From IMG/VR virus record IMGVR_UViG_3300035183_000082, positions 1-36,979 of that record: DNA of 36,979 nt. One strand, 5' to 3'. Under the pieces are notes generated by a model. The model saw only the letters and a list, made by a program, of their open reading frames with translations, made no database searches and was not told the origin of the DNA. Positions 3,363-36,727 of the stretch are shown here, one piece after another. Positions within the stretch are counted from its first letter, which is position 1. Each line of letters opens with the position of its first letter. Source of the DNA: a virus. A program made the position numbers and the translations under genes.

Positions 3363-3616
3363 ACTTGGCAAAAGTGTGTGACAGGGTAGACGTGCGTATG
3401 GAGCACTTGCGTGAGGGACTTAGAGAACTTTCAATCGGGGACGCTGCAACCCAGGCAGGAGCTTTTATGCCGAGACTTAAAATCTCGCGCCGCGCCGTGG
3501 CGGCAATCTTCGCCACGCATTTTCACTGCCTGCAGTTTCCCCCTGAGTCGCAGGAGCCGACGCATGAGGAGCTGCTAGAGCTCTGGAAGATCCTTAAAGA
3601 GGAGATCATTGACTGA
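3359..3616 (+). CDS. Hypothetical protein, 85 residues
   Basis: Small, apparently helical and soluble, ending in an acidic and leucine-rich C-terminus (EELLELWKILKEEI). I recognise no family. The ATG at 3359 overlaps the ATP-grasp stop (ATGA), and its TGA overlaps the epimerase start (TGATG), so it is locked between two enzyme genes and is very likely translated. An upstream extension in the same frame lies wholly inside the ATP-grasp gene and is rejected. It may be a small partner of one of its neighbours. Confidence 0.65.
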   Translation: MNLAKVCDRVDVRMEHLREGLRELSIGDAATQAGAFMPRLKISRRAVAAIFATHFHCLQFPPESQEPTHEELLELWKILKEEIID

Positions 3617-4542
3617 TGGGGGGCATCCTTATCACCGGCTGCTACGGGTTCCTCGGGCACGCTACCGCCGTCCGCTTGTTGAGGGAGGGGCATCGCGTCA
3701 TCGGCATTGACAAGGAGCGTGATGCGATTAGCCCCAAGGGGCCGCGCATCGCCGACCTCGCGCAGTACAAGCAATTCGAGTTCAACGACCTGAACCTCAC
3801 GAACTATGACGGGGTCGTGAAGCTGTTTTGCGATAATAAGCCCGATATGGTCGTGCACTTCGCGGCGCAGTACTCTGTGCCTCTTCGCACACAAACGGCG
3901 CTTCAGTTCAGAGATGCAAATCTGATTGGATACTTCAATCTAATGGAAGCGTGCCGCATCTCAGGAGTACCCAAAGTGCTCTATGCCAGCTCGACCTTCG
4001 TACAGGATAATTCTCTTCCGAAGTCGATGTATGGAGCCACCAAGGAGTTCGGCGAGCGATGCGGCAACGTCTATTGTCATGAGGCCGGGATGGGCTTCAC
4101 GGCACTTCGCTTCGGCTCGACTTATGGCCCCGACTGCCGCCCCGATGTCGCCGCACACCAGCTCGTGAAGAAGCTCTTCGCGCGCCAGCCCATTGATGTC
4201 ACAGTCGGCGGCTTCAATTACAAGGTTGCGTTCCTCTACGTTGATGATGCGGTCGAGACCGTGGTGCGCTGCCTCAGCGTCGATTGGCCTTGTCTCTACA
4301 ATGTCTATACAGTCGTAGCCGAGGACTATCTCGCCGACCTGAACGATATTCTGACCGCGCTCGAGGAGCACTCCGGCATCAAGGCTGATCGGCGCGGTGA
4401 GCTGTCACCCCGACAAGGCTTCGTCATTCCGACTGAGAAGTGCGAACGTCTCCGCGAGTTCTGCGGATATGCCCCATCAACAAAACTCAACGAAGGCATC
4501 CGGCAGTTCGTGGAATGGTACAAGACGAAGCGCTCACGGTAG
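3616..4542 (+). CDS. NAD-dependent sugar-nucleotide epimerase (extended SDR)
   Basis: A 308-residue extended short-chain dehydrogenase. The Rossmann motif ITGCYGFLG is at residues 6-14, an acidic residue D32 ends the second strand, and the HFAAQ segment is at 81-85. The catalytic set is S125/S126/T127 with Y139-x3-K143 (MYGATKEFGE). The ordering and the LYASST segment resemble NDP-sugar 4-epimerases, in particular UDP-glucuronate epimerase-like proteins, so the expected reaction is epimerisation or dehydration of a nucleotide sugar. It is followed directly by two glycosyltransferase-like genes, which suggests it supplies their donor sugar. The gene overlaps the next one by 28 bases. Confidence 0.85.
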   Translation: MGGILITGCYGFLGHATAVRLLREGHRVIGIDKERDAISPKGPRIADLAQYKQFEFNDLNLTNYDGVVKLFCDNKPDMVVHFAAQYSVPLRTQTALQFRDANLIGYFNLMEACRISGVPKVLYASSTFVQDNSLPKSMYGATKEFGERCGNVYCHEAGMGFTALRFGSTYGPDCRPDVAAHQLVKKLFARQPIDVTVGGFNYKVAFLYVDDAVETVVRCLSVDWPCLYNVYTVVAEDYLADLNDILTALEEHSGIKADRRGELSPRQGFVIPTEKCERLREFCGYAPSTKLNEGIRQFVEWYKTKRSR

Positions 4543-5336
4543 TTCTCTGGCTTTGGAATGGGTGGCGTCCTGTCTACGACTACACCCATGTCAACGCCAT
4601 GGTGCGCATGCTCCGCGCGAACCTCAGCATCCCGTTTCGGATTGTCTGCTTCACGGACCTGCCGGACACTAGCAGCTTCATTTGCGAGACTCGTCCGCTT
4701 TGGGATATTGAGTTCAATGTCCTCGACCTTGACACAAAACCCGGTGCGCGACGGCCCCCTTTGCATAGGCTGAACCATAAGCCCTTGCATCCTCGCTTGC
4801 GAAAACCTCTTATTGTGCAGCCTATAGTGCAGCCTCCACAGCCGACTACAAAACCGAACTCCTACCGGCGTCTTCGCATGTTCAGTGAGTGGGCAGCGCA
4901 AGAGTTTCCCGGCACGATACTAAGCATTGACCTCGATGCGGTTGTAGTCAGCGACCTAGCGCCGATCCTGACCGATCATGACTTCCGTATCAATAAGGGG
5001 CGCTGCTCTCCCTATAACGGAGGCATGTGGATGCTCCGGACAGGGACAAGGCAACAGGTTTGGGATCAGTTCGGGTGCCATGCGTACCGCACCACAAGAC
5101 AGCGCGGTTGGATTGGTTCCGATCAGGCATGGATTGCCCACGTCTGCCCGAATGAGGCAACCTGGGATGCGGAGGACGGGGTCTACCATTACTCCTTGGC
5201 GACGAGGTCTGATCCCCTGCCGGAGTGCCGGGTCATGTTTACTGCGGGTGCAATCAAGCCTTGGCACGAGCAATTTCGCAAGCGCCATCCTGTGTTGCAC
5301 GGCATCTACATGAGGGCCCTTCGGTGCTCAACGTAA
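4515..5336 (+). CDS. Glycosyltransferase-like protein A (GT-A fold, DxD)
   Basis: A 273-residue protein with a GT-A-type nucleotide-sugar binding core: the hydrophobic strand TILSIDLDAVVVSDL carries the D139-L-D141 motif, followed by YNGGMWMLR and GSDQAW. All of these recur in the next gene, so the two are paralogs. A proline- and lysine-rich insert at about residues 74-114, containing an IVQP near-repeat, separates the N-terminal strand region from the core and is absent from the paralog. The start at 4515 lies inside the end of the epimerase gene and no strong ribosome site is visible, so coupling is likely. The acceptor is unknown; capsid or tail protein, phage DNA and host surface glycan are all possible. 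Confidence 0.7.
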   Translation: MVQDEALTVVLWLWNGWRPVYDYTHVNAMVRMLRANLSIPFRIVCFTDLPDTSSFICETRPLWDIEFNVLDLDTKPGARRPPLHRLNHKPLHPRLRKPLIVQPIVQPPQPTTKPNSYRRLRMFSEWAAQEFPGTILSIDLDAVVVSDLAPILTDHDFRINKGRCSPYNGGMWMLRTGTRQQVWDQFGCHAYRTTRQRGWIGSDQAWIAHVCPNEATWDAEDGVYHYSLATRSDPLPECRVMFTAGAIKPWHEQFRKRHPVLHGIYMRALRCST

Positions 5337-6076
5337 TCTGCTGGAAGTGGGGCACGAAGTTCACCGCGCAGCATATCAACTGGCTTCGTGACCAGCTCCT
5401 TTGGGGTATGCGTGGCGAGTCGTTCCGGTTGATCTGTGTGACGGACGATGCGCGCGGCATCGAGTGTGAGACGTTTCCACTGTGGAATGATTACGCCGAC
5501 GTGCCTGCCCCGCACGGACCTCATGGCGCGAGCTGCTTCCGGCGTCTCAAGCTCTTCAAGCCCGGCCAACTCCGCGAGATGGGTATCGCCGATGGCGAGT
5601 GGGTCGTGTCGATTGACGTGGACGTGCTGGTCATGGGTGATATCCGTCCGATCATGTTCAAGGAGGGAGCCGACTTCCTCGGCCTCAAAGTGAAGGGTGC
5701 GCGACATCCCATCGTCTATAACGGCACCCTATGGAAGTTCCGCGCGGGGACCCTCGCCACTTTGTGGGAGGGGTTCAATCCGGCCGCTTCGCCGAAGCTG
5801 CACAAGAACGCCGGGTATTTTGGCAGTGATCAGGCTCATTTTTCCTACTGTCTGATCAGGGGGCAAGGCATGAGCGCAGGGTGGGATGAAAGTGACGGTA
5901 TATACGCCTATCGGAGTTTGCGCGGACAGGGCTCCATGCCCGCGAATGCTCGTCTAATCAATTTCTGTGGGAGGTGGAACCCCTGGGATGCCGATGTGCA
6001 GAAGCACTCAGCATGGGTTCTGAATTTTTGGCCTCCGCGTAACTCAGGTCTTGCAATCTCGGAGAACCGAGGCTAA
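5324..6076 (+). CDS. Glycosyltransferase-like protein B (GT-A fold, DxD)
   Basis: A 250-residue paralog of the preceding protein. Shared landmarks in the same order are PLW at 52-54, the DxD strand VVSIDVDVLVMGDI (D98-V-D100), an R-P-I after it, YNGTLWKFR, GSDQAHF and DGIYAYRS. It lacks the proline-rich insert of protein A. The start is a GTG at 5324, 13 bases inside the end of gene A, with a GAGGG stretch upstream. No ATG in frame fits better. It closes the cassette; an 80-base gap follows before the head maturation gene. A tandem duplication that then diverged could give two enzymes adding successive sugars. Confidence 0.7.
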   Translation: MLNVICWKWGTKFTAQHINWLRDQLLWGMRGESFRLICVTDDARGIECETFPLWNDYADVPAPHGPHGASCFRRLKLFKPGQLREMGIADGEWVVSIDVDVLVMGDIRPIMFKEGADFLGLKVKGARHPIVYNGTLWKFRAGTLATLWEGFNPAASPKLHKNAGYFGSDQAHFSYCLIRGQGMSAGWDESDGIYAYRSLRGQGSMPANARLINFCGRWNPWDADVQKHSAWVLNFWPPRNSGLAISENRG

Positions 6077-6156: not shown

Positions 6157-8172
6157 ATGCCGAAGCCTCACGCAGGTGAGAGCCAGGACGATTTTATCTC
6201 GCGCTGCATGGCCGACCCTGAGGCGCGGCGCGATCACCCCGGACAAAAGGAGCGCGCTGGCTTCTGCTATGGGATGTGGAAGCAGCACGCGAAGGATGCC
6301 GATCTCAAGGACGCCGATCTCTATGCGTCCTACTGTGCCGAGAAGTTCATCGTTACGGGTGACGGCATCTTCGAAGGTCGCGCGCTGACCTTCGCGACGG
6401 AAGACGACAATTACGGCTACACGTTTGCGCCGGACGCCTTCAACGACAGCCTTGAGACGCGCGGTGTGCGCGGCATCAAGATGCTCTATGAGCATGACGT
6501 GCAGAAGCCTGTCGGTGCGTGGCAAGAGATCCGAGTCCAGAGTGACGGCCTCTACGTAAGGGGTAAACTCACCCTCGAGACCGAACTCGGCAAAGAGGTC
6601 AAGGCGCTCATGGAGGATGGGGCCCTTGGCGCGCTCAGCGTCGGCTTCATGATCAAGGAGATCGAGGACAAGCACATCCTCAAAGCCGATCTCCTCGAGA
6701 TCTCCATTGTGTCCTTCCCTGCCGATCAGACCGCGACTATCGGCATGGACGCGCTTCGTCATTACCCCGCGAACGCGGCTCTACCGAAGGCCGTGCGCTC
6801 CGTGTTGCCTCCCGACGCACAGACGCTCTATCGGAAGGCGTACAACCAATACGCTGCCAGTCACCCCGATGCGCCGACCTCGCGCGCGGCGGCGGTGGCA
6901 TGGCAAGCCGTGAGACGCAAGTTCAGTGCTCCAGCAAAGGAAGCAGGCATGTGGGTTCAGAAGATCAAGCATGACGGCGATGGCGGTTCGACTTGTGTCA
7001 TGGCGGACGCCATGATGCTTGATGGCGTGAAGAGGACCGCCGATGGTTATCTCACTGCATACGCCAAAGTTGCCCGGACGGGTATTCAGCTCTACCGGGG
7101 TTTCGAGTGCGGGCGGCCGGACCTCGATGTAGTCCGGGTCTACCGTCCCCCTGCCGAGGTCTTCGACAGGGAAGCACTTATGTCCTTCGCCCACAAGCCG
7201 ATCACACTAGATCACCCAAGCGAAATGGTTTCTGCCGAGAACTGGAAGGGATTGGCAGTTGGGCAAATCGGGGACAAGGTGGAGTTCGGCGAAAACTTCG
7301 TGCGAGTTCCCCTTGTCCTCATGGATGCAGCCGCGATCAAAGCAGTTGAAAGCGGCAAGCGTGAGCTGTCGATGGGCTATACCTGCGACCTCAAATGGGG
7401 TCATGGGTACACCCCCGATGGCGAGGAATATGATGCTCAGCAAGTGGGCATCAAGGCTAACCACCTGGCAGTTGTCGCCAAGGCCCGCGGTGGTTCGGAT
7501 TTGAGGATTGGCGACGCAGGAAAGGAAGACGATATGCCTGAGTTGAAGACTCAGACCATCGACGTTGACGGTGTTGAGGTCGTCGTGGCCGATGCCTCGG
7601 CCTCGTACCTCAAGAAGTTCCTGTCCTCGCTCCAGGAGAAGGTTGCGAAGTTAGCGGCTTCAATGGAAGAGGATCAGAAGAAGGCCGACGAGAACCAGAA
7701 GGCCTATAAGAAGGCGAAGGACGAGCTGGACGCTGCCATCGCAGCCAAGGATGCGACCATTGCCGACTTGCAGGCCAAACTCAAGGACGCCGAGCTCACT
7801 CCTGCCAGGCTGGACGCTGCCGTCAAGGACCGCGCCGAGCTGATCGGGAAGGCCAAGGCGATCTTCGGCGACAAGCTCACGGTCGATGGTCAAACCGACT
7901 CGCAGATCCGCCGTCAGGTGGTCAATGCGAAACTCGGTGATACGGCAAAGGATTACACCGACGAGCAGGTTGCCGTCGCGTTCAACACCTTGGCCGCAAC
8001 CACGGACGGCACGAAGCAGCTCGGCTCCGCCATTCGCGACGCCGCGCCTGCTCACAAGCCGGGCTTCGCCGACTCCGGCGAGCACCCGGACAAGACGAAG
8101 GCCTACGACGAGTACGAGCACCGCCTCACCAGCGCGTGGCGTACTCCGAACCCTGCCGCAGCTCAGTATTAA
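6157..8172 (+). CDS. Fused head maturation protein: prohead protease, ChaB, DUF2213 and scaffold
   Basis: A 671-residue multidomain protein. Residues 1-45 form a Cys/Trp-containing N-terminal motif common ahead of phage prohead proteases. Residues about 70-195 are an HK97-type (S78) serine protease with H113 (YEHD) and S161 (GALSVGF). Residues 209-256 match ChaB. Residues about 285-447 match the DUF2213 phage family and repeat the protease pattern with H353 (LDHP) and S405 (ELSMGY). Residues 460-671 are charged, lysine/alanine-rich coiled coil typical of a scaffold. It would clear scaffold during head expansion. The full-length ATG has a weak GGACAGG site. Two internal ATGs, at 6949 and 7534, carry AAAGGAAG sites exactly at domain seams, so nested shorter products are likely. 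Confidence 0.85.
   Translation: MPKPHAGESQDDFISRCMADPEARRDHPGQKERAGFCYGMWKQHAKDADLKDADLYASYCAEKFIVTGDGIFEGRALTFATEDDNYGYTFAPDAFNDSLETRGVRGIKMLYEHDVQKPVGAWQEIRVQSDGLYVRGKLTLETELGKEVKALMEDGALGALSVGFMIKEIEDKHILKADLLEISIVSFPADQTATIGMDALRHYPANAALPKAVRSVLPPDAQTLYRKAYNQYAASHPDAPTSRAAAVAWQAVRRKFSAPAKEAGMWVQKIKHDGDGGSTCVMADAMMLDGVKRTADGYLTAYAKVARTGIQLYRGFECGRPDLDVVRVYRPPAEVFDREALMSFAHKPITLDHPSEMVSAENWKGLAVGQIGDKVEFGENFVRVPLVLMDAAAIKAVESGKRELSMGYTCDLKWGHGYTPDGEEYDAQQVGIKANHLAVVAKARGGSDLRIGDAGKEDDMPELKTQTIDVDGVEVVVADASASYLKKFLSSLQEKVAKLAASMEEDQKKADENQKAYKKAKDELDAAIAAKDATIADLQAKLKDAELTPARLDAAVKDRAELIGKAKAIFGDKLTVDGQTDSQIRRQVVNAKLGDTAKDYTDEQVAVAFNTLAATTDGTKQLGSAIRDAAPAHKPGFADSGEHPDKTKAYDEYEHRLTSAWRTPNPAAAQY
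6936..6951 (+). promoter_or_regulatory. Internal ribosome binding site and ATG before the DUF2213 domain
   Basis: AAAGGAAG at 6936-6943 followed five bases later by an in-frame ATG at 6949 (Met265 of the fused head maturation protein). The same AAAGGAA core precedes the cement, capsid and tail tube genes here. Starting here would give a 407-residue DUF2213 plus scaffold product. Confidence 0.5.
7519..7536 (+). promoter_or_regulatory. Internal ribosome binding site and ATG for a nested scaffold protein
   Basis: GGAAAGGAAG at 7519-7528 with a 5-base spacer to an in-frame ATG at 7534 (Met460). A product from here would be 212 residues (7534-8172) and would consist of just the coiled-coil scaffold. 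This is the arrangement of lambda Nu3 inside gene C, where an internal start yields free scaffold in excess over protease. Confidence 0.55.
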
Positions 8173-8228: not shown

Positions 8229-8693
8229 ATGCCCGCAGTGCAAACCTCCTATTCGGAGCGGATTGCCCAGGCTGTCGAAGGCCAGGTCGGCAACGAGACG
8301 AACTGGGACGCTGACACCAAGATTGTCGAGACCGCAGCCGGTATCGGCTTCGGCAAGGCAGTCTCTCAGGGCACCAGCGACAAGCAGATTGTCGTTGGCG
8401 GCGCCCTGGCCGACTTCGTCGGCATCACGATCAGGGATATCACCCTGCCCGCGTCCCAGAATGACACTTTCGCGGAGGGCGACGAAGTCGGCGTCCTCAC
8501 GGAAGGCGACATTTGGGTCAAGCCCTCTGTCGAAGTCGTGGCCGGTGACCCCGTCCACTACAACGCGACGACCGGTGTGTTCACCAACACTGGCGGCTCG
8601 GGCCCGATCAAGGGCGCGCGCTACATGACCAGCAACGGTGGCGCGAATGGTCTTGCGTTGGTGCGGCTCGGCGGCGGTCTGCCCCCGAACTAA
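8229..8693 (+). CDS. Capsid cement/decoration protein (Gp24-like)
   Basis: A 154-residue protein resembling the structural cement (Gp24-like) family found next to DUF2184 capsid genes. The N-terminus VQTSYSERIAQAVEGQV leads into a beta-rich region with GIGFGKAV, FVGITIRDITLP and a GDEVGVLTEGDIWV stretch. These proteins bind the outside of the expanded capsid and stabilise it. A good AAAGGAA ribosome site lies upstream, and the gene lies just before the major capsid gene, as expected. Expression should be as high as that of the capsid protein. Confidence 0.8.
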   Translation: MPAVQTSYSERIAQAVEGQVGNETNWDADTKIVETAAGIGFGKAVSQGTSDKQIVVGGALADFVGITIRDITLPASQNDTFAEGDEVGVLTEGDIWVKPSVEVVAGDPVHYNATTGVFTNTGGSGPIKGARYMTSNGGANGLALVRLGGGLPPN

Positions 8694-8771: not shown

Positions 8772-9755
8772 ATGCCCCGCATGTCCTTTGCGGATGCCCA
8801 GCAACAGGCGCTGGGCTTCCTCATTGAGCAGACGTCGTATATTGAGCCGCAGGTCGTCAAGATCCTGTATCCCAATATCCAGTACCCTGCTCTCATCCCT
8901 GTTGATACTTCGGCACCTGAGTGGGCCAAGTCAGTCACGTTCTACTCGACCGACATGGTTGGTCGTGCAGAATGGTTCCATGCCAATGCCAAGGACATCC
9001 CGCTGGCCGACGTGACCCGCGAGAAGTTCGAGCAGGGCATCAAGATGGCGGCTATCGGCTACCGTTACAATCTCGAGGAGTTGGGCCAGGCCATGATGGT
9101 CGGCGTCAACCTGTCCTCGGATCGTGCGGAAGCGGCTCGTCGGGCGTACGAGGAATTCCTCGATGACAAGCTGCTCAACGGCGACGCCGACGTGCTCTGG
9201 GAAGGTCTGCTTGACAACTCCTCAGTCACGACCATTATCGCTGCCGAGAACACTGCCAGCTCTGCCAATACCACGTTGTGGACTGGCAAGACGGGTGATC
9301 AGGTCATTGCAGACGTCAACAATGCCCTGACCGGCGTTTGGACCAACTCGAAGCAAATCGAGATGGCCGACACCGTCCTGCTCTCGCCCGCGGATCTGTC
9401 GTACATTGCGACGACCCCGCGCGCGGCAGACGGCGCATCGGATATGTCGATCATGGACTGGCTGATGCGGTACAACGTCTACACGGCGATGACCGGGCAG
9501 CCTCTCATGGTTCGCGCAGTCCGTGGTCTCGAGACGGTCGGCACCGGCGGCTCTGGCCGCATGATTGTCTACCGCCGCGATCCGCAGGTGCTCAAGGCGC
9601 ATCTCCCGATGCCTCACCGCTTCCTGCCCGTTTGGCAGACCGGCCCTGTCACCTTCGACGTTCCGGGTATCTTCCGCTTCGGCGGTCTCGAGATCCGGCG
9701 TCCGGGTGCGGTCCGTTATGTTGACGGTATTAGCGGCGTGAACCTCTACTCGTAA
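8772..9755 (+). CDS. Major capsid protein (DUF2184, HK97-fold)
   Basis: A 327-residue major head subunit. The pattern of an N-terminal QTSYIEPQV segment, the YPALIPVDTSAPEWAKSVTF stretch, and a C-terminal LPVWQTGPVTFDVPGIFR region matches the DUF2184 capsid family used by BPP-1-like phages and others. It forms the icosahedral shell and is preceded by its protease/scaffold and cement genes. The ATG at 8772 follows AAAGGAAG with an 8-base spacer. A strong intrinsic terminator 30 bases after the stop ends this high-expression unit. Confidence 0.88.
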   Translation: MPRMSFADAQQQALGFLIEQTSYIEPQVVKILYPNIQYPALIPVDTSAPEWAKSVTFYSTDMVGRAEWFHANAKDIPLADVTREKFEQGIKMAAIGYRYNLEELGQAMMVGVNLSSDRAEAARRAYEEFLDDKLLNGDADVLWEGLLDNSSVTTIIAAENTASSANTTLWTGKTGDQVIADVNNALTGVWTNSKQIEMADTVLLSPADLSYIATTPRAADGASDMSIMDWLMRYNVYTAMTGQPLMVRAVRGLETVGTGGSGRMIVYRRDPQVLKAHLPMPHRFLPVWQTGPVTFDVPGIFRFGGLEIRRPGAVRYVDGISGVNLYS

Positions 9756-24299: not shown

Positions 24300-26153
24300 T
24301 CACCCCTCGATTTGTGAGGCTCCGGTAGGGGTTTTAATCACTGTCAGCACGGATGCGAAGCGCGCGCTCTCAACGCTCTGGTGATCGACGTAGAAGGTCT
24401 GCCGTCGCAGTCCCTGAGCGCGTTGCGCCAGGTAGTCGCACAAATCGCGCACCCCTTCCGGCGACAAGTGTTGCGTCGGCTCGTCCAGGATCTCGAGACC
24501 GCACTCGACCCCGGCGTAGTTCATGAGGGTTTCTGAGAGTGCCAGGGCGCCGACGATGCGAAGGCGCTGCCCCTCACCCCCTGACCAAGACTCCCACTTG
24601 ACGGCCTTCTCCAGCCCCGGCGAAAGGACTGTGACGTTCAGGCCGCGTGTAGTCCCACCCGTCTTGTTCTCCTTCTCCACGTCGAACTTCACCTGCCATC
24701 CGATCAGCCCAACGTCCTCGAGCGCGGCGTTCGTGTTGATCTCTAGCTCCTGCAAGACGTCTTCGATGATGAAGAGCCTCACGTCCTTGAAGCCACGGCT
24801 CCAGTAGGCCGCGCGCTCGGACAGGCGGCCGAGAGTGGCGACACTCTTTTTCAGCTCCTTGATTTCAGCATTGGTCTTCGCGATCAGCTTGCGCGCGGAC
24901 TGCAGTTGCGCGGTATAGGGGTTGTCCTCTTCTTCGCGTTCCGTGCGGGTGCGCTCGAGAGCAGCGATTTGCGCGCGGGTTGTCTCCAGACTCTTGTTGA
25001 CGAGATCGAGCTCCTGGCGCGCATTCTCCAGCTCCGTCTCCCACCTCTCGGCACTCGCCTTGAGCAGCCGGACGGCGCGCTTCCATTTAGCAGCGGCCTT
25101 CTCGAGCTTCACGGTCGAGATCTTTTTGAGGTGCTTCTCCGCCTTCTCGATCTTGATGGTGACGTGGGTCTTGTCAATCTCCGATTTGATCGGCTGACCG
25201 CAGGTCGGACAGACCTTGTCACTCAGCGATGCACGGAGCTCGCGGATCTCCCTTCGCATCCGTTCGGCATTACCTTGTGCTGTCAGCAAAAGGGAGTTAG
25301 CCTTTTGCATCTCTTCGACCGCCGACGCGATCTCCTTGCGGATGCTTTTTAATTGAACTTCTGCCCAATCGGCCTTCGGGTCTAGTTCGGCGTGACGGTG
25401 CTCAAGACTCTCACGCGCCTTCTTAAGCTCCGTGAGTTCCTTCTCTTGCTGCGCGAGGCGTATTTGCCGCTCGTCCTCCCACTCCCTTGATCTGATCTTG
25501 CTCTCCTCGAGCTGCTCCTTGTAGCGCTCCAGGCTGACAGTCAGCGCGTCCAGTTCTCCTTGTCGGGTAGCCTGCTTCGTGCTGAGTGCCCGTGATTTCG
25601 CGGTTGCTGCCTCGGCACGGCGCTCCCATTTGTCCAGCTCCAGCACGTCGGAGAACAGCTGGAGCTTGTCGCGCGGGGGCATGTCGAAGAACAGTGGACG
25701 ACCTTGCCCCAGGAGTCGGGTATGCGTGAATGTCTCAAACGACAAACCCACGAGTCTCTCGACCTGCTCCTGTCCGATGCTGCCCGACTGTGGTGCTTCT
25801 CCTTTGCCTCCGTCCTCTTGCAGGTGCAGCATGTTCGGGTTCGCTGATCGGGTGAGGATGTAGGTCTTGCCGTCCACCCGCATCTCGAGGGTGACTTCGG
25901 TCCCGCGCTTCTTGCCGAACCAGGGGGTTATATCGGGATTGCGGAGGCCTTCGACTGTCCGGCCATATAAGCACCAGCACAGAGCATCCCATATTGACGA
26001 CTTGCCGGAACCGTTCGAGCCGAGAGCCGGCTCTTTGAGATTGCGGCCCCGAATGAAGTGAAGTCCTGGACCCATCGCCTCGAGATCAAGCCGCGCCTCG
26101 GCAAAGGCTTTGAAGTTCTTAATACCAATGCCGAGGAATTCGACCTTCTTCAT
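24300..26153 (-). CDS. SbcC/Rad50/T4 gp46-like recombination ATPase
   Basis: A 617-residue SMC-type ATPase, the partner of the SbcD-like nuclease encoded nearby. The Walker A motif GSNGSGKSS is at residues 45-53 and a zinc hook C315-P-T-C318 sits in the middle of a long coiled coil (about 180-480). The ABC signature SGGEGQ is at 524-529, Walker B LEILDEP at 553-559, and an H-loop histidine lies near 591. Complexes of this kind process double-strand ends to load the recombinase. The length is close to phage gp46. ATGA overlap joins it to the small ORF upstream; it is the last gene of the - strand operon. Confidence 0.9.
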   Translation of the reverse strand: MKKVEFLGIGIKNFKAFAEARLDLEAMGPGLHFIRGRNLKEPALGSNGSGKSSIWDALCWCLYGRTVEGLRNPDITPWFGKKRGTEVTLEMRVDGKTYILTRSANPNMLHLQEDGGKGEAPQSGSIGQEQVERLVGLSFETFTHTRLLGQGRPLFFDMPPRDKLQLFSDVLELDKWERRAEAATAKSRALSTKQATRQGELDALTVSLERYKEQLEESKIRSREWEDERQIRLAQQEKELTELKKARESLEHRHAELDPKADWAEVQLKSIRKEIASAVEEMQKANSLLLTAQGNAERMRREIRELRASLSDKVCPTCGQPIKSEIDKTHVTIKIEKAEKHLKKISTVKLEKAAAKWKRAVRLLKASAERWETELENARQELDLVNKSLETTRAQIAALERTRTEREEEDNPYTAQLQSARKLIAKTNAEIKELKKSVATLGRLSERAAYWSRGFKDVRLFIIEDVLQELEINTNAALEDVGLIGWQVKFDVEKENKTGGTTRGLNVTVLSPGLEKAVKWESWSGGEGQRLRIVGALALSETLMNYAGVECGLEILDEPTQHLSPEGVRDLCDYLAQRAQGLRRQTFYVDHQSVESARFASVLTVIKTPTGASQIEG

Positions 26154-26347
26154 TGTGGATGTCTCGTTCGCGGAGCACTGAACGGGCTGGCCCCCGACAG
26201 GATGCCGGAGTTGGCCCGGCGGTCGAAGATCATCAACTGGTCAATGTTCTCGATCTGTGCGACGAAGGGAGGCTTGGTCTCACACTCCACAATGGTAATG
26301 GTGAGCGTCTTCCCGTCTTGTGCGATCCCCACTCTGACCTGGCGCAT
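26150..26347 (-). CDS. Hypothetical protein, 65 residues
   Basis: Starts at ATG 26347, one base after the MazG-like gene stops, and ends overlapping the SbcC-like start (ATGA). An upstream extension of the frame inside the MazG-like gene is rejected. The sequence has a beta-type start (RVGIAQDGKTLTITIVE) and a basic C-terminus. No family recognised; its position between nuclease subunits suggests a possible accessory factor of that complex. Confidence 0.55.
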   Translation of the reverse strand: MRQVRVGIAQDGKTLTITIVECETKPPFVAQIENIDQLMIFDRRANSGILSGASPFSAPRTRHPQ

Positions 26348-26348
26348 G

Positions 26349-26720
26349 TCACCACACCAGTCGCGTCTTGAGGCCGCGCTCCCTAGATGTCGCATTGAAC
26401 TTGTCGGCAACGGCTTCTTCCATGTCGAAGCCGAACTCCATTGCGACGTCGGCAAGCTCGTCCTTGAGCTGATCGGGAGTCGCGCGCGAGCCACGAAGGC
26501 CGAGGCGCTCACGCTCGATCTTCTTGATGATGTTGCAGGCCTCACCCGTTTCACCTGCCAGCTCGTTCCCTCGGAATGATAGGGATAGCTGCACGTCTCC
26601 ATTTGAACCCTGACCCCACTCCCGCGCGCGGGTGATGTTCGCCGCGCGGAGTGAAAAGCAACGGAACCCGAGCGGGATCAGATTGTCGTCCCTCAGTTCC
26701 TCCTCGAGTAGCACCCTCAT
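26349..26720 (-). CDS. MazG-like nucleotide pyrophosphohydrolase
   Basis: A 123-residue all-alpha NTP-PPase. The metal-binding signature is visible as E57-T-G-E60 in the ELAGETGEACNIIKK helix and E88-L-A-D91 in the KDELADVAMEF helix, matching ExxE-(n)-ExxD. Such enzymes hydrolyse nucleoside triphosphates to monophosphates and are used by phages to adjust nucleotide or ppGpp pools. It lies between the SbcD- and SbcC-like genes, immediately after the SbcD-like stop. The N-terminal 40 residues are extra to the core. The substrate cannot be told from sequence. Confidence 0.82.
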   Translation of the reverse strand: MRVLLEEELRDDNLIPLGFRCFSLRAANITRAREWGQGSNGDVQLSLSFRGNELAGETGEACNIIKKIERERLGLRGSRATPDQLKDELADVAMEFGFDMEEAVADKFNATSRERGLKTRLVW

Positions 26721-27782
26721 TTACACCGTCTCCAATAGTTTGAAGCCCATCTTCGCCGTTAGGGGCTCGATGCCCCTCGCCTTCACATACGCCGCAAGCA
26801 ACTCCTTGTCAGTCTTGGCGGTACTCTTCCGCACCTTCTTCTTGTTGGTACCCCTGATGCTCTCGAGCATGACGGGCTCGACTGTGTGGATGATGAAGTC
26901 CTGCTTGGCGCCCCACTCCCGGACGGTCTGCCGAATGTTCGCCCAATCCGCCTTTTGCTTCGCATCAATCAAGACGCGCACCTTGAGGATATCTCCAGGG
27001 TTGCAGTACTTCGTGTTGACGGTGGGGTGGTGTTTCAATTCGCCAACACTGCCGAGTTCGACAAGTCGCTTTTGCGGACCCGAAACCGGAATGCTCGCCA
27101 CCGTCCACGCCTTCTTCTTACCGAGCTCCTTTCCGCGATCACGCAGCAGCAGTACGCGGGGTTGGTACTTGTCGCCGAAGTCGACAGTGTAGGGTGCGCC
27201 GACGTAGTGGATCATCTTGCCGAGCATTTGCGGGACGTGAATATCACCACTGATCACTGCGGCCTTACCGAAGGTATCTAGTGGCAGTCCTCGCATCTGC
27301 TGCCCGTGTCCGACATGCGCGCCTTGGAATGTCTGGTGGGTGAAAACCCAATCGAAGCGCTCCCGATCAGATTGCAGGGGATCGGAGCCGTGGGGGAACA
27401 ATAGAACGCGGCCCAGCCTTTGTAACAGGGGCAGGGGGAGGTCTTTGGCCTCTGTCGGCACATTCACCCACGTGATACCGGGAACGTGGCGTAGGAACGT
27501 GTAAAACGGGGCCGAGACATCGACGTAGTCATGATTACCCCTAATGATCACAACGGGGCAGAGCTTGGCGAGCCGCACCATCGCCTCGACAATCCGATTT
27601 ACCAACCATGCTCCGTGACGGTCCTTCTCCTCGGTCAGGTCGCCGAGAATAAGAACCATCTCCACCTTGTGCTTCTTGACGATGGCGCGGAGCTGCTTCT
27701 GGAACTCGAGCCTGTATCGGTCGCGCGGGTTGTCCGACAGGTGAAGGTCCGCGGTGACAAGGATCCTTGGATCAGGGGCCAT
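26721..27782 (-). CDS. SbcD/Mre11/T4 gp47-like nuclease
   Basis: A 353-residue calcineurin-type metallophosphoesterase. Metal ligands are visible in order: D12-L-H14 (TADLHLSD), G47-D48 (ILGDLTEE), N83-H84-D85 (RGNHDY), a histidine in the FTHQTF and AHVGHG segment, and SGDIH. This is the nuclease subunit that acts with the SbcC-like ATPase to resect or clear DNA ends. The start ATG at 27782 has AGAGGAG 5 bases upstream; the earlier ATG at 27803 has no such site and would overlap the HAD gene by more. The C-terminal 80 residues are lysine-rich and may bind DNA or the partner. Confidence 0.9.
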   Translation of the reverse strand: MAPDPRILVTADLHLSDNPRDRYRLEFQKQLRAIVKKHKVEMVLILGDLTEEKDRHGAWLVNRIVEAMVRLAKLCPVVIIRGNHDYVDVSAPFYTFLRHVPGITWVNVPTEAKDLPLPLLQRLGRVLLFPHGSDPLQSDRERFDWVFTHQTFQGAHVGHGQQMRGLPLDTFGKAAVISGDIHVPQMLGKMIHYVGAPYTVDFGDKYQPRVLLLRDRGKELGKKKAWTVASIPVSGPQKRLVELGSVGELKHHPTVNTKYCNPGDILKVRVLIDAKQKADWANIRQTVREWGAKQDFIIHTVEPVMLESIRGTNKKKVRKSTAKTDKELLAAYVKARGIEPLTAKMGFKLLETV

Positions 27783-28275
27783 AGCACTCCTCTTCACCTT
27801 CATCGTCCGACCAGTCCTGAGACTCGATCTCGAGGACGGGGATGCCGCGCGACTTCCAAAGCTTGATCACCGAGGGGCGGTCATCGAAGGCACAGAGCAC
27901 TTCATGCTCGGCGACAAGCTGGTCCAGGATCTCGGCTTTGATTACGGTGTCGGGGCGTGTGTCTCCTGCAACGCGCATGTACATCTCGTGGTAGGGGATG
28001 CCGTATTTCCACAGCCATGCCTCTGTCACCTCTCTGTGGCTGTCCGGGCGGCCGGACACGATGAAGAGCTTTAGCTTCGGGATAGCATCGAAGCCACGGC
28101 TCACATTCCAGAGCGCGCGCATGATCAGGCGGATATGCTTATATGGCGTATCTCGTCCGCATAGATCGAAGAACTCCTGCCACCGGCGCGGATGGGACTT
28201 AACAAGGTGGAGGCGGTGGGTCTGGTTCGCAATCGTGCCGTCCAGGTCAAAGATGAGGCAGGGGGTCTTCTTCAT
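27772..28275 (-). CDS. HAD-family phosphatase, polynucleotide 3'-phosphatase-like
   Basis: A 167-residue HAD hydrolase. Motif I is D10-L-D12-G-T, motif II is in FIVSGRPDS (about residues 71-79), a lysine follows in RPDTVIKAEIL, and motif IV is FDDRPSV. The SGRPDSHREVTEAWL and RPDTVIK segments resemble the phosphatase half of T4 Pnk. The expected role is therefore removal of 3'-phosphates from damaged nucleic acid ends. No kinase domain is attached. It overlaps the GcrA-like gene (ATGA) and the SbcD-like gene. A general nucleotide phosphatase is an alternative. Confidence 0.8.
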   Translation of the reverse strand: MKKTPCLIFDLDGTIANQTHRLHLVKSHPRRWQEFFDLCGRDTPYKHIRLIMRALWNVSRGFDAIPKLKLFIVSGRPDSHREVTEAWLWKYGIPYHEMYMRVAGDTRPDTVIKAEILDQLVAEHEVLCAFDDRPSVIKLWKSRGIPVLEIESQDWSDDEGEEECYGP

Positions 28276-33749: not shown

Positions 33750-34158
33750 ATTTGCGAGCGTCCTCTTCTGCTTTCTGCCAATCCTCCCAGGGGAAAACAA
33801 CCCACGCCTCCGGGCTCTCGAAGCGACCGTACCCGGCGACAAGAGACGGGTTCTTGTTTACCCATACCCATGCGGCGAACTTTCCCTTGGGGAATATTTG
33901 ATAGAAGCGATTGATGGTCTTTTGCATCGTGTCGCCGGACTCGAGGATGTCATCAACGATAAGGCAACAGTCCTCGGGTTCCATTAGTAATGGAATGTCC
34001 AGGTGGTGCGACAATGAGGCGGCGAGGATCACACCCCCGCGCGGGATGCCGTAGACGCCTTTGAGTTTGCCGACGAGTGGCCCGGCTTTATAGTCGGCGA
34101 TGGCAGCGTAGACGCCATCATCGAAGTCATCCCATGTGAGAAACAGCTTCTTAACCAC
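33727..34158 (-). CDS. Phosphoribosyltransferase
   Basis: A 143-residue type I PRTase-fold protein. The PRPP-binding motif LIVDDILESGDTM is at about residues 66-78, and a GIPRGGVILA loop lies at 38-47. It would attach or remove phosphoribose on a purine- or pyrimidine-type base, acting in salvage. The start is GTG 34158 with AGGAG 6 bases upstream. A longer frame reaching into the polymerase gene is rejected. It overlaps the polymerase stop by 8 bases. It is short for the family, so it may be a minimal form (xanthine/hypoxanthine type), and substrate is unknown. Confidence 0.8.
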   Translation of the reverse strand: MVKKLFLTWDDFDDGVYAAIADYKAGPLVGKLKGVYGIPRGGVILAASLSHHLDIPLLMEPEDCCLIVDDILESGDTMQKTINRFYQIFPKGKFAAWVWVNKNPSLVAGYGRFESPEAWVVFPWEDWQKAEEDARKYELTHKV

Positions 34159-36727
34159 GTATCGCTCCTGTCCACTTGTCCGACCGGAACACCCCTCCAT
34201 TGGCGAGGCCGTCTGTCGCCTTGTCCGCCCAGTTCTGACCGACTGACATTTCAACAACGATAGGGACCACGTTCGCCCACTCGAAGGGGCATGCCAGCAT
34301 CTCCCGCACAACGATTTCGGCCAGTTCATCAATCCTCTTTTCTTCCCAAATGAAGGTCAGGTCGTCATGTATCTCCATACTCGCTTGAAGCAGGTCATGG
34401 TCTATCTTGGAGAGGCGTATCATGGCATCGAGCACGATGGCGGCTTCATCCGCCTGAATAGGCGCATTGATCAGCTCATTGGGGCTGATCGGAGCGCGAC
34501 GGCGGAAGCCCGTGCAGCCGGTGACATAGCCATGCTTCCAGTAGAATTTCTCTATGCGCTCGTGCCATCCTTTAATGTCGGGGAACATCTCCCAAAACTC
34601 GTCAAGGCACTCCTCGGCAATGTCCAGGGGTATACCGAGCTCACTAGCAATCTTCTTCGCTCGTGCGCCGAAGAATGATGGGAATACCATCTGGTTCTTC
34701 GTGTCTCCCCTCTTTGCCTTGAAGAGGTCTTTGTCCTCTTTGAGTGCGCGGCGGCCCCCTGGAACCCACTCCGGGTACTTGTCAATAATGCGCCAGGTCC
34801 AGTCCGCGTGAATGTCGTAGTCTTCCCAAAAGGCTTTCAGCAGTGCAGCATCGAGGCTCTCCATGCCCACGTTCCGGGCCTGAATTTGCCCGTAGTCGAA
34901 TGACACGACCTTATAGCCAGGCTTCGCCGCGATCTGAGAGCGGACCTCTTTCGTCTGCCGCTTGGGGAAGTTTTGAATGTTCGGGTCCTCGGAGCTGGTG
35001 CGCCATGTCCGAGTGGTGGTAGTGGAAATGATCGGGTGTACCATGCCGTCCGGGTAAAGGTGCGGCGACCCTGGCATCAACGGCTTGACGTAGGTCGAGT
35101 GTAGCTTGTTCGCTTTGCGCCAGCGAATGATCAGGCGCGCGACCGGATGCTTTATCTTGGCAATGGCCTTCTCGTCAGCATTGTCCAGAGGCACCCCGAC
35201 GATCTGCCGGAAGAAGTCGAGCACGTCTTTGGAAGCTGCCGGATTGAATGAATGACCGAAGCGCCGCTCGAACTTCTTGATACTAGGGAGCCGCGCGAGG
35301 CTGGCTTCGGCCTTCTCCCGGCGACGTGCGTAGCGTCGATCAAAGAGTGCAACGGCTTTCGGGTCGACAGGTACTCCCTTGAGTTGGGTGAGGACGAGAG
35401 TCGGGATGCGCGGGTAGTGCATCCGGTAGAGGTCCGATAACCCTTCCTCCTCGAGCCGCTTTCGCTGCTTTGTCCAGAGCAGCCGATGGTATTTCGCATC
35501 GAGGCCGTTATATCGGCAGACATGCTCGACAGGGTACTTGTCCAAGTTGTTCTTGTCGAGGTCGCCGGACAGGGCTTTCACGTTCAGCCCGAAGTACTGC
35601 ATGATCAGGAACTCGAGGGAGAGGGCGTCGGGCTTACCCATCTTCATGCGCTCGTCAAGCAGGTAGGCTTGTGAGGCCGTGTCGCCCCACTTCGTTCCGT
35701 GCAAGATCTCTTTGCCGAACCAGAACGCCGACCACTCCTGCTCGAAGTTGAGGAAGTGTGAGATCTTCCGGCACTTGGCTTTGTGGAAGAAGAGTTTGAG
35801 CTCCCGCATGATCAGCTCGCGCTCTTCGTGGTTCCATGTCGCACCTGAGTGATCAATCGGGAAGGCGAGTGTGCGGGCGCCTGTAGATAGCGCGACGGTG
35901 AGTATCTTGGCTCCTGCCGCATATGGCCTCTTCTTATTCGTCTCGTAGTCGAGGCCGACGGCCTTCTCCTCATAGAGCGATCGGAGGAAGGCGACGATGC
36001 GCCGCGCGTCCTTGCACTCGACCTCGATGCCCTCTAGTGCGGTCTCTTTTGTATGGACAATAGGTTTCGGTAGTCCGGCTTTGACGGCAGCGAAGGCGCG
36101 CTTCATGTCTAGCGCGAATTGGAATTCTTCATCGGAGCCGTAGCCCTTCGAGCGGAAGCCGCGCTCTGTCGCCTTCCGGGCGAGGTATGAGGGGTGCAGC
36201 ATGGGGAAGAACCAGCACGTATGCGACCCCACCTTGATCGGCACCATGCGCCCGCACCACTTGGTGATGCCCGTCATGTCGAGTGCCCATCTGAGGGGTA
36301 CTCCGCCGAACCCGAAGATAGCTTCCGGTTTTGTCTTCTCAATGTCGGCAATGACAGAGGGACGGCAGCACTCGATCTCGACCTGGGTGGGCGTGCGATT
36401 GCCGTCCCCCTCCTTTGGCCGGGTCCTTACGCAGTTGTTCCATCGGACTTTAGAGTGCCATTCAGGGGGCATATAAGAGCGCAGGAGCCGGCCTGCTTTG
36501 CCGACGAGCTGGCGGCCCTGCCGATCCTCTTTTTCCCCTGGCGCTTCGCCTAGCAGGTAGACTTGGGGGTTCTCACATCCCGTTGCTGGCATGTCCGGGT
36601 TGTGCAAATCGCAATGGAGCGATGCGAGGGGACATGCCTTGCATCCGGCAGCATGGAGTGTTTCGACAGAGATGCGGCCCGTATCGCGCCTAGGGCGCTT
36701 GGGCTCCACGAAGCTGAAGAACCCCAT
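34151..36727 (-). CDS. UDG-family domain fused to family A DNA polymerase
   Basis: An 858-residue replicative polymerase. Residues 25-215 resemble type IV/V uracil-DNA glycosylases: CxxC at 29-32, GEAPGEKED at 60-68, C99 and C120 with NRTP between them (likely 4Fe-4S ligands), and HPSY at 178-181. The 3'-5' exonuclease follows, with D260-Y-E262, N327/E329 and Y406...D410. The polymerase has TRTWRTSSEDPNIQNFP (572-588), motif A DYGQIQAR (611-618), motif B R673-x3-K677 with VFPSFFG, and motif C IHDD (786-789). Motif A has Gln616 where Glu is usual. UDG-like domains fused to Pol A are known in SPO1-type phages. The gene begins 6 bases after a partial upstream gene. Confidence 0.9.
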   Translation of the reverse strand: MGFFSFVEPKRPRRDTGRISVETLHAAGCKACPLASLHCDLHNPDMPATGCENPQVYLLGEAPGEKEDRQGRQLVGKAGRLLRSYMPPEWHSKVRWNNCVRTRPKEGDGNRTPTQVEIECCRPSVIADIEKTKPEAIFGFGGVPLRWALDMTGITKWCGRMVPIKVGSHTCWFFPMLHPSYLARKATERGFRSKGYGSDEEFQFALDMKRAFAAVKAGLPKPIVHTKETALEGIEVECKDARRIVAFLRSLYEEKAVGLDYETNKKRPYAAGAKILTVALSTGARTLAFPIDHSGATWNHEERELIMRELKLFFHKAKCRKISHFLNFEQEWSAFWFGKEILHGTKWGDTASQAYLLDERMKMGKPDALSLEFLIMQYFGLNVKALSGDLDKNNLDKYPVEHVCRYNGLDAKYHRLLWTKQRKRLEEEGLSDLYRMHYPRIPTLVLTQLKGVPVDPKAVALFDRRYARRREKAEASLARLPSIKKFERRFGHSFNPAASKDVLDFFRQIVGVPLDNADEKAIAKIKHPVARLIIRWRKANKLHSTYVKPLMPGSPHLYPDGMVHPIISTTTTRTWRTSSEDPNIQNFPKRQTKEVRSQIAAKPGYKVVSFDYGQIQARNVGMESLDAALLKAFWEDYDIHADWTWRIIDKYPEWVPGGRRALKEDKDLFKAKRGDTKNQMVFPSFFGARAKKIASELGIPLDIAEECLDEFWEMFPDIKGWHERIEKFYWKHGYVTGCTGFRRRAPISPNELINAPIQADEAAIVLDAMIRLSKIDHDLLQASMEIHDDLTFIWEEKRIDELAEIVVREMLACPFEWANVVPIVVEMSVGQNWADKATDGLANGGVFRSDKWTGAIRG

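Follow-up and report, generated by a model that had tools for sequence, protein, structure and literature searches.

Genes in which a capsid protease and a scaffold are nested are already known from lambda (C/Nu3), Mu (I/Z) and the herpesviruses (UL26/UL26.5). The nested herpesvirus scaffold UL26.5 is made from a separate transcript, and the assemblin protease itself, whose triad in HCMV is His63, Ser132 and His157, needs to dimerise. Prohead proteases in known systems also process themselves. DUF2213 has been treated as a bacterial domain that has no known function and is putatively essential, with NUDIX, LPD3 and DUF1073 among its partners (PMC8770471). The B. cenocepacia gene BCAM1066 from that study may be the head protease-scaffold gene of a prophage, and a prophage may then explain why it appears essential. 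The DUF2213-family protein gp24 of Pa193 (9b40; E = 1.9e-15) is resolved at residues 286-326 as a helix-turn-helix pentamer, bound inside the five-fold vertices of the capsid; its authors name it a putative scaffold, and the protease domain goes unmentioned (PMC11042391). The location of these helices ties the C-terminal part of the DUF2213 family to coat binding.

Here, we analysed the virus record IMGVR_UViG_3300035183_000082 over its 36,979 nt (the window). On the plus strand at 6157-8172, it contains a gene that probably encodes a tandem-protease scaffold polyprotein of phage head assembly, with nested products most likely made from one mRNA.

Domain content and inheritance of the fused gene

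The open reading frame listing of the window gives 671 codons without interruption (6157..8172, +; stop included). The start ATG at 6157 is backed by an identical 17-nt start, ATGCCGAAGCCTCACGC, in the related record IMGVR_UViG_3300031997_000059 (L270), which carries a homologous ORF of 772 aa. The N-terminal leader (aa 1-66, 6157..6354, +) had no Pfam or PHROG match, but sequence comparison revealed a helical motif of RCM type that is also present before the S78 domain in some viral S78 proteases (L180-L188) and mostly missing from L270. It is followed by a Peptidase_S78, or HK97-type prohead protease, domain (aa 71-196, 6367..6744, +; Pfam E = 1.1e-19), which scored 71.7 bits against PF04586 (cut-off 21) and 82.4 bits against TIGR01543 (cut-off 59). 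A ChaB domain (aa 209-269, 6781..6963, +; E = 4.1e-11, 43.8 bits, cut-off 27) covers the full length of its profile, positions 1-60. Homology to DUF2213 begins near residue 284, and the Pfam domain extends over aa 292-453 (7030..7515, +; E = 7.8e-51, 172.8 bits, cut-off 22). The C-terminal scaffold region (aa 460-671, 7534..8172, +) consists of a coiled coil and a C-terminal domain and has a homologous region in Pa193 gp24. Residues 289-668 together matched phrog_530, “head maturation protease” (8e-97), and since this match spans both parts, DUF2213 and scaffold constitute one known family unit. An earlier note, made from the letters of the window, had described a single 671-codon gene joining S78, ChaB, DUF2213 and a scaffold coiled coil, and had proposed a profile search as a check; the frame, Pfam and phrog_530 all agree with that description, and each of the three domains was matched well above its curated cut-off. 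No S49 match, as expected for a ClpP-type protease like lambda C, was found by Pfam in the polyprotein, the protease domains being S78 and DUF2213.

Downstream lie the genes for a decoration or virion structural protein (8229..8693, +; phrog_563), preceded by the Shine-Dalgarno (SD) sequence AAAGGAA, and for the major head protein, or coat (8772..9755, +; phrog_264), preceded by AAAGGAAG. The order DUF2213-scaffold, decoration and coat is kept in Rhizobium, Pseudomonas, Acinetobacter, cyanobacterial and prophage relatives. Elsewhere in the window, a nucleotide-sugar epimerase gene and two overlapping glycosyltransferase-like ORFs occupy 3616-6076, directly upstream of the head operon, with a similar set in L270. 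Genes for SbcC- and SbcD-like nuclease subunits are found at 24300-27803 (-) and a DNA polymerase gene at 34151-36727 (-). A PF03237 search of the 37 kb record gave no terminase large subunit, although head and tail genes are present; the contig may be incomplete, or it may carry a divergent terminase.

The fused arrangement is rare. A tblastn search of 50,697 phage and 72,556 plasmid records returned no record covering 80% of the polyprotein, the ChaB segment alone gave nothing in phages by tblastn, and single-protein scans with P0001 or its N-terminal part found no relatives. We retrieved 170 DUF2213 relatives, drawn from annotated records, IMG/VR and GTDB genomes, and in none did the retrieved stretch contain S78 or ChaB; nor did any of 80 viral S78 relatives have ChaB or DUF2213. 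ChaB was missing from 50 DUF2213 and 50 S78 viral contigs. S78 occurred in one of the 50 DUF2213 viral contigs, there as a separate gene, which indicates that the two proteases are normally alternatives. Apparent S78-ChaB proteins in four bacterial genomes (G081, G244, G085 and G394) and in L272/L273 were rejected as alignment run-on containing no ChaB.

Such rarity among the DUF2213 relatives, S78 relatives and phage records is what a recent fusion, or an assembly chimera of unrelated genes, would produce. Against both stands L270, an independent contig reached only via its coat protein (72% identical), in which the ORF has S78, ChaB, DUF2213 and scaffold in the same order at 61% identity overall (S78 57%, ChaB 70%, DUF2213 73.5%, scaffold 46%). 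The approximate dN/dS between the two phages, with dS near saturation, was 0.12 for S78, 0.08 for ChaB, 0.13 for DUF2213 and 0.29 for the scaffold, suggesting purifying selection on every part of the polyprotein; the same saturation made a comparison of synonymous-site conservation uninformative. All six catalytic residues of the two proteases are kept in L270. Given the shared architecture, the purifying selection and the intact triads, the gene is not an artefact, and its fusion is not a fresh one. L270 rules out both, and we regard a chimera or recent fusion as exceedingly improbable. The proposal in the earlier note of a recent fusion with lost stop codons is likewise abandoned, given 57–73% identity and a dN/dS of about 0.1 for S78, ChaB and DUF2213. 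On the strength of these two sequences, the S78-ChaB-DUF2213-scaffold gene is an inherited, selected arrangement with two members so far, further IMG/VR scans for a third having found none.

Between ChaB and DUF2213, L270 has an insert of roughly 130-150 aa (L270:2816-3290), with no Pfam or PHROG match and with an internal repeat (YQDAGVMTRDSGFVVRSK / YKDVGILTNDTGFVARKA).

The earlier note had also counted three ancestral genes. No separate scaffold gene was seen in the related phages: DUF2213 and scaffold form a single gene in every relative examined, so that only two genes were joined. In four metagenomic phages (L017, L022, L024 and L037), a different N-terminal extension, a FYxSKNxGTITGVDS module, is fused upstream of the DUF2213 match, indicating that N-terminal additions to the DUF2213 protease recur.

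Residues and folds of the two protease domains

The S78 triad, H113 (6493), S161 (6637) and E181 (6697), was invariant in 49/49 aligned S78 rows. In DUF2213, the candidate triad consists of H353 (7213), S405 (7369) and H436 (7462), invariant in 71/71 aligned rows. The invariance of H436 makes the third residue a histidine, as in the herpesvirus assemblins, rather than a glutamate as in S78, and this predicted triad matches that of the herpesvirus proteases in residue types and order.

The earlier note had seen the S78 pattern of H113 and S161 repeated in H353 and S405. These residues exist; however, profile-profile comparison of the S78 and DUF2213 alignments did not bear out a repeat, aligning only 17 residues that were shared by construction. 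The H/S repeat is thus invisible in sequence, and kinship between the two domains rests on the fold. AlphaFold models of both domains were built from sequences of the window and related loci. The top PDB matches of the S78 model were herpesvirus proteases (E = 1.2e-5, probability 1.00, TM about 0.3-0.4). The DUF2213 model (pLDDT 85, about 95+ across the domain) independently gave herpesvirus proteases as its best PDB matches (EBV, E = 7e-3, probability 0.95; HCMV, probability 0.96; TM 0.26-0.37), with no PDB E-value as low as 0.001, and in BFVD it matched annotated prohead proteases, one of them a member of COG3740. The proposal of two assemblin-like domains in one chain agrees with these models, and both domains are likely to have the assemblin fold, an assignment that the low TM-scores (about 0.3-0.4) leave short of proof.

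We considered the possibility that one of the two domains has no catalytic role and has been retained for structure, serving perhaps in targeting or as one half of an intramolecular dimer. One protease suffices in relatives, as seen from the single S78-bearing contig among 50 DUF2213 phages, and herpesvirus proteases require dimerisation. However, both complete triads have been kept in both phages at 57-73% identity and low dN/dS, and we consider an idle domain rather unlikely.

Internal start signals

Two internal ATG codons of the gene are preceded by SD-like sequences, AAAGGAAGCAGGC-ATG (6936/6949, Met265) and AAAGGAAGACGAT-ATG (7521/7534, Met460). The pattern AAAGGAA-N4..8-ATG occurs four times in the window, compared to an expected 0.17, and none of 100 shuffles reached four. 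The other two occurrences are the decoration start (8229) and the capsid start (8772), so that the ribosome site core is indeed shared with the separate structural genes, as the earlier note had it. Within the window the two sites are not outstanding in SD energy (-5.6, compared to -6.5 for Met152 and -4.5 for the full-length start). In L270, the homologous sites rank first and second among the 40 ATGs of the ORF (-11.3 and -8.8), while the start of the polyprotein gene itself has a weak SD (-3.7). The earlier note had placed the two ATGs exactly before DUF2213 and before the scaffold. Both sites are exactly where they were reported, but 6949 falls within the ChaB tail and not at the DUF2213 border.

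The site at the DUF2213/scaffold seam (7521..7536, +; AAAGGAAG followed by the ATG of Met460) is a putative start for a nested scaffold and is kept across the DUF2213 family. An in-frame start was present in 118/119 distinct linkers (116 of them ATG), 5-12 codons ahead of a VDG motif. An SD energy of -5 or better was found for 96% of the seam starts; among 590 other in-frame ATGs of these genes, the share was 8%. The seam site was the best internal in-frame ATG in 118/133 relatives. On average, its SD was slightly stronger than that of the gene's own start (p = 1e-4, for relatives that are not independent of one another). The site also ranked first or second in six far-diverged DUF2213 phages, including PB1. 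The peptides that encode the SD differ (KEEKIM, EGGHM, GKGKRSM), as do the codon phases, which points to a nucleotide signal being kept. In synonymous shuffles of the relatives, 66% of the seam SDs stayed at -5 or better, so peptide composition carries part of the signal. Loss of the internal ATGs in relatives would have argued against nested starts. The scaffold start is instead kept family-wide and both internal sites are the best SD-ATG pairs in the L270 ORF, which argues for the starts, as distinct from their products.

Separate products could also arise by proteolysis. In that case, S78 would cut the linkers on either side of DUF2213, to ChaB and to the scaffold, and the ATGs within the gene would be incidental. 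Self-processing is known from other prohead proteases, and both seam linkers have low confidence in the models or are variable. However, proteolysis leaves unexplained why a start and an SD should be found at one seam in 118/119 distinct linkers with differing peptides and codon phases, and the seam start is also present in phages without any S78 (49/50 contigs). We therefore consider proteolysis an unlikely source of the separate products and favor internal initiation, at least at the scaffold seam.

The second site (6936..6951, +; AAAGGAAG followed by the ATG of Met265) lies inside the C-terminal motif of ChaB, where GMW aligns with GKW of bacterial ChaB, 19 residues ahead of DUF2213. If used, it would give a DUF2213-scaffold product of 407 aa. 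Comparison of this site is possible in L270 alone, and beyond the two fusion phages there is no relative able to test it. It may be that only the Met460 start is real, giving two products, and that the ChaB peptide K-E-A-G-M mimics an SD and ATG at Met265: the AAGGAR motif arises from Lys-Glu codons alone, the position is internal to a domain, and the opening cost (13.4) is the highest among the starts of the polyprotein ORF. On the other hand, GDDGKW of bacterial ChaB has become KEAGMW in both phages, yielding an SD and an ATG; the window site has exactly the AAAGGAA-type SD that the phage uses elsewhere; and its counterpart in L270, AAGGAGG-CTGGC-ATG, has the strongest SD of the 40 ATGs (-11.3). 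The chance that Met265 goes unused is, in our view, only somewhat short of even.

Proposed working and comparison with known systems

In the working that we propose, a gene for DUF2213 and scaffold, itself containing the nested start, would be the ancestral unit. In the lineage of this phage, S78 and ChaB would have been added in frame at its N-terminus, and a signal resembling a ribosome site lies close to where they meet. The full-length chain would be made at a low level from the weaker start at 6157, the scaffold alone (212 aa) in larger amount from Met460, and the 407-aa DUF2213-scaffold product possibly from Met265. The scaffold region would co-assemble with the major head protein and bring the proteases attached to it inside the procapsid. 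There the proteases would cleave the scaffold, and perhaps coat or portal, making way for the DNA. Relatives have a C-terminal tail after S78; it is absent here, and ChaB-DUF2213-scaffold, which stands in its place, could take over the packaging of the protease. It is conceivable, though doubtful, that two different active assemblin-fold proteases pair intramolecularly, delivered by the scaffold that they cut, and that the proportions of S78, DUF2213 and scaffold copies in the procapsid are set by three nested products.

Searches of open-access literature gave no account of the S78-ChaB-DUF2213-scaffold architecture, in agreement with the remark in the earlier note that ChaB plus a double protease was not known to it as a described unit, nor of DUF2213 genes that contain a nested start. 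As far as these searches reach, the placing of two protease families in tandem on a single scaffold is new, as are the predicted family-wide nested scaffold start and the candidate His-Ser-His set in DUF2213. The domain, listed in Pfam as of “unknown function”, thereby gains a concrete reading as an assemblin-like protease with Ser-His-His residues, joined to a scaffold that has a nested start of its own. This is the same logic as in herpesvirus UL26/UL26.5, and it bears on the common ancestry of capsid assembly in tailed phages and herpesviruses. The fused gene is also a natural experiment, in which two normally alternative proteases share one scaffold and their substrate differences become testable.

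With the DUF2213 family (PF09979, phrog_530), which includes Pa193 gp24 and the Pam3 head scaffold protein, the gene shares DUF2213, the scaffold, the putative nested scaffold start and the downstream decoration and coat genes, whereas S78 or ChaB was present in no relative tested except L270. With the HK97 gp4-type prohead proteases (Peptidase_S78, PF04586, TIGR01543) it shares a complete protease domain with the H-S-E triad, but gp4-type proteases are normally separate 20-30 kDa genes with a C-terminal tail, replaced here by ChaB-DUF2213-scaffold. Lambda C/Nu3 and Mu I/Z have an in-frame scaffold nested by means of an internal ribosome site, which is predicted here from the conserved signal; lambda C, however, has only one protease, of the S49 ClpP-like fold, where the window gene has S78 and DUF2213. 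Herpesvirus UL26/UL26.5 likewise joins an assemblin-fold Ser-His-His protease to a scaffold, the nested in-frame scaffold being predicted here. The phage gene differs from it in its tandem of two protease domains and its predicted internal ribosome sites, and the two have no detectable sequence homology.
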